In this document: positions 3,403-59,251 of the stretch, one piece after another
Layout of the letters: every line of letters begins with the position of its first letter
Position numbering within the stretch: the stretch's first letter is position 1
NCBI RefSeq assembly: GCF_000471625.1
Contig: NZ_AUSW01000015.1
Span: forward strand, 1-64,000
DNA length: 64,000 bases
Direction: 5' to 3'
Source: Psychrobacter aquaticus CMS 56
GTDB taxonomy: Bacteria; Pseudomonadota; Gammaproteobacteria; Pseudomonadales; Moraxellaceae
Program-made: the position numbers and the translations under genes
The notes under the pieces: model-generated
Seen by the model: the letters and a program-made list of their open reading frames with translations, nothing else
Database searches by the model: none
Told to the model about the DNA's origin: nothing

Positions 3403-4842
3403 ATGCAACGTAAATTATCAGCATTTATAGTAGGAATTTCTGCATACCCAGATGGTGCAGCACTGAAAAATCCAGTGAATGATGCCGATGACGTGACCGA
3501 AGCCCTTGAGGAATTAGAATTTAATGTGATAAAGATAACTGATGCTAGCGCAGAGGATATTGACAGAGGGTTGGAGGATTTTAAAGATTATCTTAACAAT
3601 AGCGATGTGGGTTTGTTTTATTTTGCTGGGCATGGAATGCAGATCAAAGGCGAAAATTATCTTAACACTGTAGATACAAGCTTCGTAGATGAAATTTCAG
3701 CTAAACATTCATCGTTTCCTCTAAATCAAATTATTGATACGATGGATTCATGTACGAACTCAACTAATATAATTATTCTTGACGCTTGTAGGAATAATCC
3801 ATTTATTAGAGCTTGGAATAGGGGGCCTGAACAGAGTGGATTGGCATCTGTTTATACTCCAAAAGGAACTTTTATGGCTTTTGCGACCTCCCCTGGTGAA
3901 ATTGCAAAAGATGGATTAGGACGAAACGGTAGTTTTACGGAGTCTTTTTTGACTCATATAAACACTCAAGATGTCCCAATTGAAGATCTATTTAAGAGGG
4001 TTAGAAACACGTTATCAGCTAGAACATCTGGATCTCAAACATCTTGGGAACATACATCTTTATCTGGTAATTTCTTCTTCAATATGAGTATTGGGAGAAT
4101 TGTTGATGAATACAGTTCTGAGTCGCTAGCAGACTCACTCTACATGCTGACATCTGGAAAAAAAATTGATGAAGTTATTAAAGACTTAAAAATAGGTAAC
4201 TGGTATATACAGAACCCTGCAGTAAAAAAATTAACATCCGATGACATAAATGCTTCTGATAATGACTCCTTATTTGTATTAGGAAGGAACATATATCAAG
4301 CCTCTTGTGGTAGTTCAGACGCTGCAACAGAGTTTATTAAAAACTTCAAAGACGAAGTATTATTAGAAGAAGATAAGTCTAAGTGTATTTTAGATGGTAT
4401 GTTATTCGAAATATTCTTCAACTCAAAGGGGGAGCTCAGATCAAGTTTCAAGGCAGCTCAATTTGAATTAGTGTTTTCTCTAAAATCTTATTCAAAGTTT
4501 TCAGGAAGCTTCGATTTTATATCTGAGATACTTTTGAAGTACCAGAATAGATTTTATGTGATACCTGGAAAAAATAACCAAGTTAATGTTGATGTAGTTT
4601 CACATAAAAACGATGAAAATGAAAATGTGATTGCGGAGATTCATTTTCAAGGTTTTAATATATTAAGAAAAGATGATAGAAATAATCGCTTAGATATGGG
4701 TACATATCCAATTAAATATAGTAAGTTAGTTAGACTTTTATCAGAAGAGATGATAATTCCTAACGCTCAACTAGTAGTTACAGCTTCTTTCACCAGTGAA
4801 GACAGGATTCTCTTCCCATATGGTATGAGCGTCAGTAAATGA
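3403..4842 (+). CDS. Caspase-like (peptidase C14, metacaspase-type) protein
   Basis: 479 aa. The first 230 residues form a caspase p20-like fold: strand SAFIVGISAYP, catalytic His77 in FYFAGHGMQ and catalytic Cys129 in ILDACRNNPF. This is the His-Cys dyad of bacterial caspase homologues. The remaining 250 residues match no domain I recognise and lack signal peptide or membrane segments, so the protein is probably cytoplasmic. Bacterial relatives often act as effectors in stress or phage defence, or in signalling. The gene is AT-rich, has its own spacer and ends in a convergent terminator, which suggests acquisition. No partner sensor gene is adjacent. Confidence 0.85.
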   Translation: MQRKLSAFIVGISAYPDGAALKNPVNDADDVTEALEELEFNVIKITDASAEDIDRGLEDFKDYLNNSDVGLFYFAGHGMQIKGENYLNTVDTSFVDEISAKHSSFPLNQIIDTMDSCTNSTNIIILDACRNNPFIRAWNRGPEQSGLASVYTPKGTFMAFATSPGEIAKDGLGRNGSFTESFLTHINTQDVPIEDLFKRVRNTLSARTSGSQTSWEHTSLSGNFFFNMSIGRIVDEYSSESLADSLYMLTSGKKIDEVIKDLKIGNWYIQNPAVKKLTSDDINASDNDSLFVLGRNIYQASCGSSDAATEFIKNFKDEVLLEEDKSKCILDGMLFEIFFNSKGELRSSFKAAQFELVFSLKSYSKFSGSFDFISEILLKYQNRFYVIPGKNNQVNVDVVSHKNDENENVIAEIHFQGFNILRKDDRNNRLDMGTYPIKYSKLVRLLSEEMIIPNAQLVVTASFTSEDRILFPYGMSVSK

Positions 4843-55826: not shown

Positions 55827-56381
55827 ATGAATATTCAGTTATCGTCAATAGTGACTATTATGGTAAGTGCTTTAGCACTGATGGGTTGTCAAACGGCCCT
55901 TCAGAAATCTGAGTTGGATAATCAAGCAGGTCGCACCCTCAACATGCTCACTATTTTGGTTAATTTGGATAGCGACGGTGATAGAGTGGTTGATTCATTA
56001 GACGAATGCCCAGGTACACCATGGAACGTAGTGGTAGATGAAAGAGGGTGTCCTGCTTCGTTACTTCCTGATGAGAGTACTTTTACAATGGAGACTAGAG
56101 CTTTCTACCAGGAAAATAGCAGTGAAATAAAGAGTCAATATTATGAAGAGCTCAACAGATTAGGCGAGAGACTTCAGCAGCATCCGGACGCTATAAGTAT
56201 TATGGATGGTCATATCTCAAAACGTGAAGACTATAAAACTAATCAAACACTATCTAAAAATCGCGTTGAAGGCATTAAAAATTATTTGATACTAAAATAT
56301 CAGATCGATCCTAATCGTATTAAGACTTTTTATTATGGATCAGATCGACCGATTGCGTCAGATGATAATACTGAAAACTGA
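55827..56381 (+). CDS. OmpA-family lipoprotein, cut at its 3' end by the prophage
   Basis: 184 aa. Lipobox LMGC gives lipidated Cys21. A calcium-type repeat (DSDGDRVVDSLDECPGTP) and an OmpA-like peptidoglycan-binding domain follow (TLSKNRVEGIKNYL, then TFYYGSDRPIAS). The normal family end, about ten residues with NRR, is missing. The stop codon TGA at 56379-56381 is the first three bases of the prophage terminus, so the gene was interrupted there. The product may still fold. Confidence 0.8.
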   Translation: MNIQLSSIVTIMVSALALMGCQTALQKSELDNQAGRTLNMLTILVNLDSDGDRVVDSLDECPGTPWNVVVDERGCPASLLPDESTFTMETRAFYQENSSEIKSQYYEELNRLGERLQQHPDAISIMDGHISKREDYKTNQTLSKNRVEGIKNYLILKYQIDPNRIKTFYYGSDRPIASDDNTEN

Positions 56382-56431
56382 TGCGGCGCGTTATAATTTT
56401 TTGAAAATTGCGTTATAAATGCATCGCATCA
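56379..56431. mobile_element. Mu-like prophage right end
   Basis: The sequence starts TGATGCGGCGC, which equals the outer 11 bases of the Mu right end with one change, as I remember it. ATAAATGC follows at 56415-56422, 36 bases from the end as in Mu. Two direct GCGTTATAA copies (56388, 56410) are spaced 22 bases apart. They are likely transposase-binding sites. The left end lies beyond the window. Confidence 0.7.
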
Positions 56432-56451
56432 TTATTACATAGTCAGTAACT

Positions 56452-56973
56452 CTATTTCATTTCTTTCAAGTACCTCTCGAATAATTCTAAACCCAATGGC
56501 GCGAGCTTACCCTGCCATAGAGATTTGATCGTATCATCGCTGCTGATCGTTACACTAGCTTGATCAATGACAAGTCCTGTATCCCAACCATCATCCAATT
56601 GATAGAGCGAGCCTCCCGTTAGGGTCTCACCAGCTACAAATGCGTCTGCGATGGCGGTTTTGCCTTTATACGCTGGTAGTAGGCTTGGATGGTAACCTAC
56701 AGCTCCATGTTTGACTTTAGCTCTAGCATCATCATTTATAAAGCAATGAGCATGCGCCATTAGCATAATATCAATGCCGTTCGGCACGTCTTCAGCTAAT
56801 AAGGTCTTGCCATGAGTCATAACGGGAATAAGAAGGTTGTTAGCCAATACAGCCGTTCTATCATCAATATGAGGTGCTGAGACCATCACTACGTCGATGC
56901 CTTCCATACTAGCGCAGAGTTTAAGCAGCTGTTCTGCTAACCATTTTTGACCAACTATCATTACTTTAATCAC
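56452..56973 (-). CDS. Formyltransferase-like protein of the com cassette
   Basis: 173 aa. It keeps the formyltransferase core HPSLLPAYKG with His95 and the Asp loop DDGWDTG (Asp131). The usual Asn two residues before His is Gly93, so the catalytic Asn-His-Asp set is altered. Known family members transfer formyl from 10-formyl-tetrahydrofolate to amino groups (purine precursors, Met-tRNA, sugars). It overlaps the ABC/GNAT gene by eight bases, so the two are coupled. A role in modifying a DNA base is inferred from context only. Confidence 0.75.
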   Translation of the reverse strand: MIKVMIVGQKWLAEQLLKLCASMEGIDVVMVSAPHIDDRTAVLANNLLIPVMTHGKTLLAEDVPNGIDIMLMAHAHCFINDDARAKVKHGAVGYHPSLLPAYKGKTAIADAFVAGETLTGGSLYQLDDGWDTGLVIDQASVTISSDDTIKSLWQGKLAPLGLELFERYLKEMK

Positions 56974-58060
56974 AGCTAGCTCCTAAATAGCGAAAACCTT
57001 GCACAGCTCGAAAATGCCCACCGTACTTGCCGCCAGCCGCAGTAGTAGAACGTGAGGCTCGGCCTCCATGCAATTGACCACTGATCTGCGTCCACTTAGT
57101 ACTGCGTCTTAGGGCAGCAGCTAGGTTTGGATGGCTAGTGTGGAATATAGTACGTAAAGGCTTATCGTAACGATTTTCAGCGTTCAGCCAATGTTCGCTC
57201 ACTTGGTTTAGAAAGCGCATACCTATGCCAGCACCTTGCCATTCGGGCATAACTACCAAGCGACAAGAGCGGGCTTCAATAAGACCAGGACGCGTCGATA
57301 CTGCGATATGAGCAACTAGCTTCCCATTTACTACTGCCACATAGTTAGTGGCCGCAATCATAAGTGGCATTTTTAAATAATGATGCGGCTCAAATAAGTG
57401 CCAAAATTGCCAGTTTGTTTGGTAGATGTCGAATGTAATAGGTGGGCGTTGCCAAAGACTCCCCCGTGTAAATTCGCTTTTTGAGGTGTCATATACCCAG
57501 TCAGGCTGCAGCCAATCAAGAACGTCGTAATGACAGGTCAGTAGTACTGCTTGCTTACCTTTTGTTCTACGCCAAGCCTTAGCAAACGCATTAGCACCGA
57601 TACAGGCAATTTGGCGATCAACGACACTACTAAACTCATCAATGACCAAGCGATTAGGCTCATCAGCCAAGGCACGTGCAAGGTTAGCGCGGAACTGCTC
57701 ACCATTACTAAGTACATGATGCGGGCGTAGCCATGCTGGTACAGTGCCAAGTCCTACCGCTGATAGACATGCTGTGGCATCATCAATGCTACCTTCAGCT
57801 GCGATCTGGTCAATGATAGGTTTGGTTTTGTCCCACTTAGGATTATGTATAGGTGTGCGAGGCCATAGCTTTTTGCCAATGCTGGTTTTGCCTGTACCTG
57901 AGCCGCCGACAATGACACCGATTTGCCAATCATCATCTTCAATAGGCAGGTCAGCGTTGATATGGACATTTGCACCTTGCTCAACGTTAAATAAGCTTTT
58001 AATACGCGCAGAGCGATAGCTATCATGGTCGGTACATTGATGATGAATATTGATATTCAT
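56966..58060 (-). CDS. ABC-ATPase/GNAT acetyltransferase fusion
   Basis: 364 aa. N-terminal ABC-type ATPase: Walker A GGSGTGKTS at 52-60, signature LSNGEQ at 117-122, Walker B LVIDEFSS at 138-145 and His177 as H-loop. The C-terminal GNAT domain has RLVVMPEWQGAGIG at 267-280, the acyl-CoA site. No membrane segment is present, so it is not a transporter. The layout matches the family described as ABC ATPase fused to a predicted acetyltransferase. Mu Mom is also a GNAT-like protein. Its start overlaps the preceding small ORF (ATGA). Confidence 0.82.
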   Translation of the reverse strand: MNINIHHQCTDHDSYRSARIKSLFNVEQGANVHINADLPIEDDDWQIGVIVGGSGTGKTSIGKKLWPRTPIHNPKWDKTKPIIDQIAAEGSIDDATACLSAVGLGTVPAWLRPHHVLSNGEQFRANLARALADEPNRLVIDEFSSVVDRQIACIGANAFAKAWRRTKGKQAVLLTCHYDVLDWLQPDWVYDTSKSEFTRGSLWQRPPITFDIYQTNWQFWHLFEPHHYLKMPLMIAATNYVAVVNGKLVAHIAVSTRPGLIEARSCRLVVMPEWQGAGIGMRFLNQVSEHWLNAENRYDKPLRTIFHTSHPNLAAALRRSTKWTQISGQLHGGRASRSTTAAGGKYGGHFRAVQGFRYLGASCD

Positions 58061-58233
58061 ACGACCACCACCTTAAGGTTGTAGCCTAGCTGATTGAGCT
58101 GATCGTAGACTGCTTTTTGGTGAGCTTCATTAGTACAGTTTACGATTACACCGAATTTAGGGCTGTATTTAAACCCATTCTTAGCTGGTGCTTTTGAATC
58201 GACTTTGGGGGTCTTTGACTTGATTGTGGCCAC
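58057..58233 (-). CDS. 58-aa protein translated from within com
   Basis: Starts at GTG 58233 with AAGGA eight bases upstream, inside the com gene in another frame, and overlaps the next start by four bases. The C-terminal half is a compact module (FGVIVNCTNEAHQKAVYDQL, then GYNLKVVVV) with strand-helix-strand character. I do not recognise it as a named family. The GTG start and the overlap copy the way mom is arranged in Mu. Confidence 0.75.
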   Translation of the reverse strand: MATIKSKTPKVDSKAPAKNGFKYSPKFGVIVNCTNEAHQKAVYDQLNQLGYNLKVVVV

Positions 58234-58396
58234 GAGTACTTCCTTCTTTAGTTTGAGACTCGTGGTCTTCTGGAGTGGCGTTCTGGACGCTCAAATAATT
58301 GATAGTTTTACACCTTGGGCATTTGATAGATAGGTGGTCAAACTTACCTATCTTAAGTAGCTTTTTGGTGCAGTTTTGGCAATTTAAGAATTTCAT
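58181..58396 (-). CDS. com: Com-like zinc-finger translational activator
   Basis: 71 aa from ATG 58396, with AGGAAG at good spacing; an ATG at 58423 would add nine residues. The first 31 residues match Mu Com: CQNCTKKLLK, then FDHLSIKCPRCK. Four cysteines form a zinc finger. Mu Com binds the com-mom mRNA and melts a hairpin that hides the mom start. The C-terminal tail is Ser/Lys-rich. Its 3' end overlaps the 58-aa ORF by 53 bases. Confidence 0.88.
   Translation of the reverse strand: MKFLNCQNCTKKLLKIGKFDHLSIKCPRCKTINYLSVQNATPEDHESQTKEGSTRGHNQVKDPQSRFKSTS
58230..58265 (-). promoter_or_regulatory. Hairpin that hides the GTG start of the 58-aa ORF
   Basis: In the transcript CCACGAGU pairs with ACUCGUGG (eight perfect pairs) around a 20-base loop. 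The GUG start lies in the 3' arm and the AAGGA ribosome site in the loop. Mu mom is blocked by a comparable structure relieved by Com. Confidence 0.65.
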
Positions 58397-58442
58397 ATTA
58401 CTTCCTGTGCAATAGCGTTTCATATTATGATATCCTTGCCAT

Positions 58443-58456
58443 CTCTCACGTGAGAG
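58443..58456. other. Perfect 14-bp palindrome upstream of com
   Basis: CTCTCACGTGAGAG is fully self-complementary and lies about 50 bases before the com start. It is a candidate operator for the cassette. Confidence 0.5.
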
Positions 58457-58503
58457 GCAGGGACTTGCTTTGCGACAGGGGGCTTAAGGTCTAGCTGTCA
58501 AAA

Positions 58504-58536
58504 GGATCGACTGGCTGTTGACGCAGTCAGTCGTTT
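58504..58536 (-). terminator. Terminator of the tail operon
   Basis: CGACTGACTG and CAGCCAGTCG pair with one mismatch. On the reverse strand the stem is followed by ATCCTTTT. It separates tail genes from the com cassette. Confidence 0.6.
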
Positions 58537-58561
58537 CCCTGTTTATCATTTGAAATACCTA

Positions 58562-59251
58562 TTATTCGGTACGTCTCCAGCGTCCAACAACAACTGAAGG
58601 CTGTGTATTGTTGTGTGGCTCACCTCCGCCGACCGATTGCTCCGTAGCCTGTAACCAATTAGAACTAGTTAAATTGCCCGTACCGTACTCTTCAGTTAGA
58701 TGATCATAGTCACCGCTACCTTGGGTTTCGAGACCTGATTCCGATGCGTTAGAGCCAAATTTATTATAGACGTCGTCTTTACTATGCTTATGCGCCGGAG
58801 CTTCATCAATGATAAGCGAATGCTCATATTCCCCATATTCAGTACCTATAACTTTAGTCCACCCTGGATCAGCTGTCTTTGAAGATACTCCAACAGTAAC
58901 TAAGCCTTCACCAAAGCTTACCCATGTACCATAGCCCATAGCGGCAGCAACTTCAGCACCAGATGTATAGACTACAGTTGTTTCAAATAGTCCACCAACG
59001 GGTAAGAACGGTAAATTATCAGTAGGTGCTTCTTCCAAATCTTTAATACGTTTAAGCAGCGTTTCGAGAGTAACAGGTTCAGTTGGCTCACCTTGAATAT
59101 CTTCGATTTCTTTCTTGAGATAAGCTGTACGGTTTGCCAATTGCTCATGCGGTACATTGTCTACGCCACCAGCGCCACCTTGAACGGGATCGTTTGGGTC
59201 GATTTGCGTAATGCCAGTTACCCATACTGGGTTTTCTTTGACTACAGCCAT
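58562..59251 (-). CDS. Phage tail fibre/collar-type protein
   Basis: 229 aa. The N-terminus (TQIDPNDPVQGGAGGVDN) joins the baseplate in related phages, a short coiled coil follows, and the C-terminus has the His/Asn-rich PAHKHSKDD and GGGEPHNNTQPSVVVGRW of receptor-binding collar proteins. It probably forms a short fibre that contacts the host surface. GGAG stands nine bases before the start. A chaperone gene is not seen. Confidence 0.8.
   Translation of the reverse strand: MAVVKENPVWVTGITQIDPNDPVQGGAGGVDNVPHEQLANRTAYLKKEIEDIQGEPTEPVTLETLLKRIKDLEEAPTDNLPFLPVGGLFETTVVYTSGAEVAAAMGYGTWVSFGEGLVTVGVSSKTADPGWTKVIGTEYGEYEHSLIIDEAPAHKHSKDDVYNKFGSNASESGLETQGSGDYDHLTEEYGTGNLTSSNWLQATEQSVGGGEPHNNTQPSVVVGRWRRTE

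Follow-up and report, generated by a model that had tools for sequence, protein, structure and literature searches.

A putative Com-controlled DNA-modification cassette with an ABC-ATPase/GNAT fusion and a formyltransferase-like protein at the end of a Mu-like prophage

The window analysed here, a stretch of 64,000 nucleotides from Psychrobacter aquaticus CMS 56 (contig NZ_AUSW01000015.1, positions 1 to 64,000), contains at the right end of a Mu-like prophage a cassette of four minus-strand open reading frames (ORFs), from 58396 to 56452, each overlapping the next: com, a 58-aa ORF termed here the tail ORF, a fusion of an ABC ATPase with a GNAT domain (ABC-GNAT), and a formyltransferase-like protein (FT) (Table 1). 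An earlier note on this DNA had placed such a set there, with a 71-aa match to Com, overlaps between all the genes, and the prophage terminus alongside, and each of these points was borne out: the four ORFs are found on the minus strand, the overlaps amount to 53 nt (com/tail ORF), 4 nt (tail ORF/ABC-GNAT), and 8 nt (ABC-GNAT/FT), and 73 bp separate the cassette end from the terminus. The prophage is delimited by TG...CA ends at window position 56379 and contig position 93688, with a 6-bp target duplication, GAAAAC, directly outside both. The cassette closes the late gene block, tail genes lying upstream, and MuA-, MuB-, Gam-, and Mor-like ORFs, named by eye from their translations, are located at the opposite end and read towards it. 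That the cassette constitutes an operon is close to certain. Taken as a whole, it may be a late, Com-activated DNA-modification operon in which formyl-CoA (the formyl thioester of coenzyme A) made by FT would be used by the GNAT domain on a base, a reading to which we give even chances.

Table 1. Features of the cassette and of the adjoining prophage end (window coordinates)
Feature	Position	Strand	Evidence
com (zinc-ribbon RNA-binding translational activator, 71 aa)	58181..58396	-	PF10122, phrog_6417, phrog_13819
Predicted hairpin spanning the tail-ORF start	58230..58265	-	Fold, Com motif statistics, relatives' folds
58-aa tail ORF, putative stand-alone ParB-like C-terminal domain	58057..58233	-	phrog_28816; profile-profile match
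ABC-ATPase/GNAT fusion, 364 aa	56966..58060	-	Pfam, AlphaFold model, Foldseek, motif positions
FT, formyltransferase fold of FDH-hydrolase type, 173 aa	56452..56973	-	PF00551, FDH similarity, motif survey
Right terminus of the Mu-like prophage	56379..56450	.	TG end, repeated GCGTTATAA motif, GAAAAC just outside

The identification of Com arises from matches to the Pfam family Zn_ribbon_Com (PF10122, 1.9e-10), to phrog_6417 (2.3e-24), and to phrog_13819, annotated gpCom (1.6e-10); an alternative upstream ATG would give a product of 80 aa instead of 71 aa. RNA selected by the Com protein of H. sputorum is reported to carry 5'-GAG(N)2CC-3', as a rule in two copies; the protein is proposed to recognize CC(N)2-3GAG within the loop of a hairpin, and the GUG start of Mu mom lies within a stem (PMC6483171). 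The Com motif was counted in a 190-nt stretch around the start codon of the tail ORF and compared with dinucleotide shuffles. CC(N)2-3GAG occurs in 46 of the 49 com-type copies (shuffle mean 19.6, maximum 28) and the full bipartite, doubled motif in 17 of them (shuffle mean 0.04, maximum 1), whereas the ParB-type copies with FT, described below, stay at chance level for the former (14/37 against 14.9 in shuffles) and lack the latter (0/37). Among the pattern controls, GAGN2-3CC is also frequent (44/49), since the published motif contains GAGNNCC, and the opposite-strand CTCN2-3GG is found in 15/49. In the window, a predicted hairpin pairs CCACGAG with CUCGUGG, the latter holding the GUG start codon of the tail ORF; the fold of 58215-58310 reaches -17.3 kcal/mol (z -2.1, with 7 of 200 shuffles as good), and a similar start-codon hairpin was folded in three of four close relatives. 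On these sequence grounds, Com very probably controls the cassette.

The tail ORF (phrog_28816, 5.8e-18) links the cassette to ParB-like proteins, whose genes often precede ABC-GNAT in phages outside the com group. A comparison of the 58-aa family with ParB C-termini gave an HHalign probability of 99.2% (E 7e-20), and the family matches 65 of 67 ParBs, each at its C-terminus, with no match among reversed controls; judged by these profiles, the tail ORF is a stand-alone C-terminal domain of ParB-like proteins. It probably acts as a docking element. Since the tail occurs alone in all 50 com-type copies, none of which has ParB, the N-domain of ParB is probably dispensable in com-type phages.

The third gene matches phrog_11143 (2.8e-167). 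Its product in the window exceeds the Pfam cut-offs for Acetyltransf_7 (27.7 against 27) and Acetyltransf_1 (23.8 against 20.7), ABC_tran falling just below (24.7 against 25); across 70 aligned ABC-GNAT members, 69, the window copy included, match ABC_tran at E of at most 0.01. Walker A (from residue 52), the signature LSNGE (117), Walker B (139), the H-loop (175), and the acyl-CoA loop PEWQGAGIG (272) are all recognizable, and the ATP-site residues K58 of Walker A, S118 and G120 of the signature, D141 and E142 of Walker B, and H177 of the H-loop are invariant in the 70 members, as are Q275, G276, and G278 of the GNAT loop. With an AlphaFold model built from these 70 sequences (mean pLDDT 89.7), all of the top 50 Foldseek matches listed from the PDB are ABC ATPases, and among viral proteins there is a whole-length match to a protein of Leptospira phage LE4 (E 9e-32) together with separate matches to GNATs. 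A reading as a defence system was discarded, PADLOC giving weak ATPase matches, the best being mad3 at 1.5e-05 on residues 112-149. Inteins favour sites of the P-loop kind, and an intein-like insert was noticed by eye in the Walker A of one ABC-GNAT (L245:2672-4942). Besides, at L114-L117, L119, L121-L123, L125, L126, L130, L133, L134, and L139 the ORFs for ABC and GNAT are separate or broken, so that covalent fusion of the two may not be needed.

As to what such a protein does, Iyer et al. 2021 recall their own 2013 prediction that ABC ATPase-coupled GNATs place an uncharacterised acyl modification on a DNA base, and name as an example the Tenacibaculum phage pT24 (PMC7824862), a protein of which is a match of the window ABC-GNAT (E 2e-32). 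In the Leptospira LE3/LE4 paper, the neighbours with ParB-like and ABC domains are placed in the replication category (PMC6078989). Association with com and with mom points to DNA modification. Of 35 records matched, 12 other phages with com were fetched, and in all 12 the gene next to com is DNA-modifying, ten of these neighbours having been scanned with Pfam (3 Mom, 7 methyltransferases) and two being taken from record annotation (KS5, Phipami28). Pseudomonas phage Bise has, immediately ahead of com and a DNA adenine methylase, a gene whose annotation is reverse transcriptase family (L264:1266-2297). Homology between the Porphyromonas phages 006a and 012a extends up to and including the last tail gene and resumes for the final 90 bp; these flanks enclose a 42-aa tail ORF, ABC-GNAT, and FT in phage006a, in which com was not found, and in phage012a a Mom homologue that aligns with 77% of Mu Mom at 33% identity. 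The earlier suggestion that the cassette stands in place of mom is thus supported by an exchange with a Mom homologue between sister phages, and its claim of DNA hypermodification finds support in these associations. Finally, Microbacterium phage Appa has ParB and Mom in an arrangement like that of ParB and ABC-GNAT. Homology between the GNAT domain and Mom was considered and set aside: an HHY-like motif at the domain start is common to both (best E 0.03, with three Moms only), the profile-profile comparison is not significant, and Mom is absent from the seven Pfam families matched by the window ABC-GNAT at E of at most 1. It is nevertheless likely, from the gene associations, that the cassette modifies a DNA base. 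The notion that ABC-GNAT acylates a host protein or RNA instead, such as RNA polymerase or tRNA, has a model in the phage GNATs known to modify host RNA polymerase (Rac; PMC7824862), but the consistent company of com with DNA-modifying enzymes, the exchange with a Mom homologue, the ParB-like partners, and the late position beside terminase or the phage end make it very unlikely.

The gene set recurs beyond the window. An identical four-gene order is present in four other IMG/VR contigs (L001-L004; L005 is 100% identical), in a second Psychrobacter (L017/L049), in Pseudomonas phage Komp_PAO1_1, and in a Neisseriaceae genome (L018) in which com lies 0.9 kb further upstream; the set is therefore not a chance assembly. 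The com of Komp_PAO1_1 (L008:5683-5931) is not annotated as such, and by gene order this record appears to join two phage ends mid-record. The nearest named relative, Psychrobacter sp. bablab_jr014, shows 85% identity. Of 299 host-family genomes, 7 have a relative of ABC-GNAT with an E of at most 1e-40, some copies being broken or partial. In a Moraxellaceae genome (L051:5756-6912), ABC-GNAT is in three pieces while com, tail ORF, and FT remain. Within the genus, FT is present in 2 of 105 genomes, one of them the source genome. The cassette is mobile and patchily distributed.

Profile searches of viral contigs supplied the best 80 of 596 matches for ABC-GNAT and the best 80 of 340 for FT, besides 39 of 39 for the ABC-GNAT of Rhodococcus phage Jace, 3 of 3 for its CoA-transferase (CoAT), and named phages and genomes; the locus counts given here are accordingly best-match samples and not population frequencies, loci retrieved with FT being biased towards FT. 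Clustering at 90% identity reduced 222 ABC-GNAT copies to 155 representatives, 107 of which have at least 900 nt on both sides. Written as upstream/downstream, their contexts are ParB/FT (32), com+tail/FT (28), ParB/none (18), none/none (11), ParB with aspartate decarboxylase (PanD) and CoAT (8), tail/FT (5), com+tail/none (2), ParB/CoAT (2), and tail/none (1). A quick tree was made of these 107, its long branches being flagged; one clade (SH-aLRT 100) has FT in 65 of its 68 members, and none of the 39 copies outside it has FT. The two genes are closely apposed, FT starting at most 35 nt from the ABC-GNAT end in 95 of 101 non-redundant FT-bearing copies (by profile-match ends), and ABC-GNAT adjoins FT in 79 of 80 FT-query loci, not de-replicated, one locus (L178) showing no ABC-GNAT upstream. 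The co-occurrence expected by the earlier note also holds, since non-redundant com-type copies with at least 450 nt downstream have FT in 46 of 48 cases and the tail ORF is constant in this type. Among the 80 ABC-GNAT-query loci, 56 have FT; the other 24 comprise 9 with less than 450 nt downstream, 5 close relatives, and 10 distant ones.

FT itself matches Formyl_trans_N (PF00551, 5e-17), and its model (pLDDT 96.3) consists of the formyltransferase fold alone. The catalytic His95 and Asp131 are kept, and the position of the Asn of amine formyltransferases is occupied by Gly93. Its best sequence relative in the PDB is the hydrolase domain of 10-formyltetrahydrofolate dehydrogenase (FDH; 124 bits, 4e-35), ahead of the best Fmt (94 bits) and the best PurN (about 60 bits), and the same domain comes first in the fold ranking (Z 24.6, rmsd 1.5, 171 residues aligned). 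Over 119 distinct FTs, the Asn is found in none and the Asp in all, the His being present in every motif listed (GYHPS 107, GFHPS 4, IFHPS 3, AYHPS 2, VFHPS 2, AFHPS 1). Assignment as PurN or as methionyl-tRNA formyltransferase was rejected because the Asn is missing and the curated scores lie below their cut-offs (fmt 51.7 bits against 201.5, PurN 42.9 against 150.1), which makes the annotations "tRNA-methyltransferase" and "cyanobacterial PurN" on FT homologues doubtful. The Asn is described as crucial in FMT, ArnA, and GART; FDH has Ile104 there, its exchange for Asn leaves less than 10% of the hydrolase activity, and the proposed attacker is a thiol (PMC4388273). ALDH1L1 carries the formyl group on 4'-phosphopantetheine (PMC8748788), and the authors of the HypX work propose, without direct proof, a formyl transfer from 10-formyl-tetrahydrofolate (10-formyl-THF) to CoA (PMC6802093). 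HypX of Cupriavidus has Val at the Asn position; the Asn is thus missing from both of the thiol users compared, known or proposed (FDH and HypX), as it is from the FT family. The FDH-type similarity and the missing Asn together suggest that FT may use a thiol as acceptor. Whether FT is a formyl-thioester maker feeding the GNAT domain stands, in our estimation, at fifty-fifty.

The place of FT is filled differently in Jace and its relatives, which have an aspartate decarboxylase followed by a CoA-transferase, or a CoA-transferase alone. The former belongs to PF02261 (2e-33), all 9 distinct sequences keeping the Gly-Ser processing site, and the latter is a short family III enzyme matching the N-terminal part of PF02515 (2.2e-8). 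PanD and/or CoAT occur in 10 members of a 16-member tree branch apart from the FT clade, and are together with FT in none of the 155 representatives. The pair could make beta-alanyl-CoA; read most simply, the downstream slot would supply the acyl-CoA on which the GNAT domain draws. At L219-L224 (e.g. L219:4001-7261), two ABC-GNAT copies flank the PanD and CoA-transferase pair, possibly corresponding to two marks or to a heterodimer. There are two other explanations of FT. In one, the GNAT domain would first attach an acyl group that bears an amine, glycyl for instance, to the base, and FT would then formylate that amine; this agrees with the gene order, ABC-GNAT then FT, and with a fold family that mostly formylates amines, but it is unlikely given the 119 FTs devoid of the amine-formyltransferase Asn, the lack of any gene with an amino-acyl donor look among the four, and the presence in the FT slot of PanD/CoAT, which reads as donor supply. 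In the other, the GNAT domain would use acetyl-CoA or another host acyl-CoA, and FT would be a 10-formyl-THF hydrolase altering folate or purine pools during infection. The FDH hydrolase domain does hydrolyse 10-formyl-THF (PMC4388273), no donor gene was found for 29 of the 39 ABC-GNATs that fall beyond the FT clade, and five close relatives lack FT; yet FT is tied to the ABC-GNAT end and stands without ABC-GNAT in one of 80 FT-query loci, unlike a free-standing metabolic gene, and we regard this explanation as distinctly unlikely.

In the formyl-CoA model that we prefer, Com would free the tail-ORF start, with ABC-GNAT and FT, whose genes overlap, following by translational coupling, so that the modification would be made late, at genome packaging. 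FT would move the formyl group from 10-formyl-THF to the thiol of CoA, a step modelled on the HypX proposal and on the 4'-phosphopantetheine thiol of FDH, and the GNAT half would use formyl-CoA for N-acylation of an exocyclic base amine in DNA. With the ParB-type tail domain as its docking element, the ABC ATPase might load the GNAT on DNA or move it along, this ATP-driven step being drawn by analogy with ATPase-GNAT fusions such as TmcA. The modified phage genome would thereby escape host restriction. In other lineages, ABC-GNAT could be fed by the aspartate decarboxylase and CoA-transferase (perhaps with beta-alanyl-CoA) or by no dedicated gene (perhaps with host acetyl-CoA). The most extended form of the proposal, in which a thiol-accepting FT and the GNAT domain carry out formyl-CoA-driven hypermodification and a swappable neighbour sets the acyl group, beta-alanyl where PanD and the CoA-transferase take the slot, is put forward tentatively, at somewhat less than even chances.

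Several observations weigh against this model. Base acylation by the cassette is a prediction, and to our knowledge a GNAT using formyl-CoA is without precedent; formyl-CoA was described in 2019 as known solely as a CoA-transferase substrate (PMC6802093). The GNAT half aligned with 25 Mom sequences at an HHalign probability of 1.5%, close to the ABC half (0.9%) and to the reversed control (0.7%). On the side of FT, the fold comparison is a tie, Fmt reaching Z 23.9 against 24.6 for FDH with PurN lower (20.7), and the argument about the acceptor therefore rests on sequence; furthermore, FDH passes the formyl group to a carrier domain, and no carrier family was matched by any of the four cassette genes in Pfam, so that CoA as the acceptor is inferred. 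Five close relatives with downstream room have no FT (L077, L079, L091, L093, L098) and the five tail/FT contexts among the 107 show no com, hence neither FT nor com is strictly needed. Lastly, the predicted hairpins have modest z-scores (-0.9 to -2.4), and of the four relatives one folds otherwise.

The view of the earlier note that this is a hypermodification operon gains from the co-occurrence and from the exchange with a Mom homologue, and is partly anticipated, as base acylation by ABC-GNAT was already in print (the 2013 prediction cited in 2021). Its remark that it knew of no characterisation of the set stands insofar as no report of the com/FT set turned up in searches of the open-licence PMC literature. 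What the present analysis adds is the FDH-type FT without Asn and the occurrence of PanD/CoAT in the FT slot, never with FT. If the proposal is true, a nucleoside heavier by 27.995 Da should occur in FT phages and one heavier by 71.037 Da in PanD/CoAT phages. Isolated phages exist for both, namely Gordonia phages in which FT goes with ParB and ABC-GNAT (Sisko, Axumite, and Mariokart) and Rhodococcus phage Jace with PanD/CoAT. The decade-old prediction of an uncharacterised acyl mark on phage DNA becomes testable by mass. N-formyl and beta-alanyl bases would then join the known DNA marks, formyl-CoA would acquire a new biological use, and a modular scheme, in which a single gene slot suffices for a change of base mark, could let phage lineages diversify their protection from restriction. 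The data also suggest that Com might be a general switch for DNA-modification payloads, beyond Mom.

Around the cassette, scans of 56300-58700 gave shuffle-level results for promoters (7 against 5.5 in shuffles) and terminators (2 against 2.2), and a single GATC lies upstream of com, at 58505. The insertion target of the prophage is an OmpA-like gene, which is split by it, the 5' part lying in the window (55827-56381), and an OmpA-like paralogue adjoins the other phage end (contig ~93689 onward). Outside the prophage, the ORF at window 3403-4842 has, by eye, the look of a caspase-fold protease.

Finally, the cassette can be set against known systems. The ABC ATPase-coupled GNAT of pT24 is homologous to the window protein, but at the thresholds used it has no ParB, FT, or com beside it, and the word "formyl" is absent from the main text of Iyer et al. 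2021 (PMC7824862). HypX, which serves CO synthesis for NiFe-hydrogenase, resembles FT by a formyltransferase-fold domain without the Asn (VVHPG) and by the proposed transfer from 10-formyl-THF to CoA (PMC6802093), and differs by its distant sequence (21.5 bits), by a proposed decarbonylation of formyl-CoA, and by having no link to DNA. Closer is the FDH (ALDH1L1) hydrolase domain, the best sequence and first fold match, which shares the xYHPSLLP motif without Asn and the catalytic His, Ser, and Asp; unlike FDH, FT has neither carrier nor dehydrogenase domain and belongs to a phage operon with an acyl-CoA-type enzyme. The RNA cytidine acetyltransferases TmcA/NAT10, in which an ATPase fused to a GNAT acetylates N4 of the base, offer a working analogy for an ATPase and a GNAT acting together on a base, whereas their ATPase is a helicase rather than an ABC ATPase and their substrate is RNA. 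In its layout, the cassette is alike to Mu com-mom, with a Com regulator, a com gene overlapping the next one (80 nt in Mu, 53 nt here), a GUG start in a hairpin (predicted here; for Mu, PMC6483171), a location at a transposable phage's right end, and a payload comprising a GNAT domain. The payload is what sets the two apart, being Mom (PF25680) in Mu and the ParB-tail ORF, the ABC-ATPase/GNAT fusion, and FT in the cassette.

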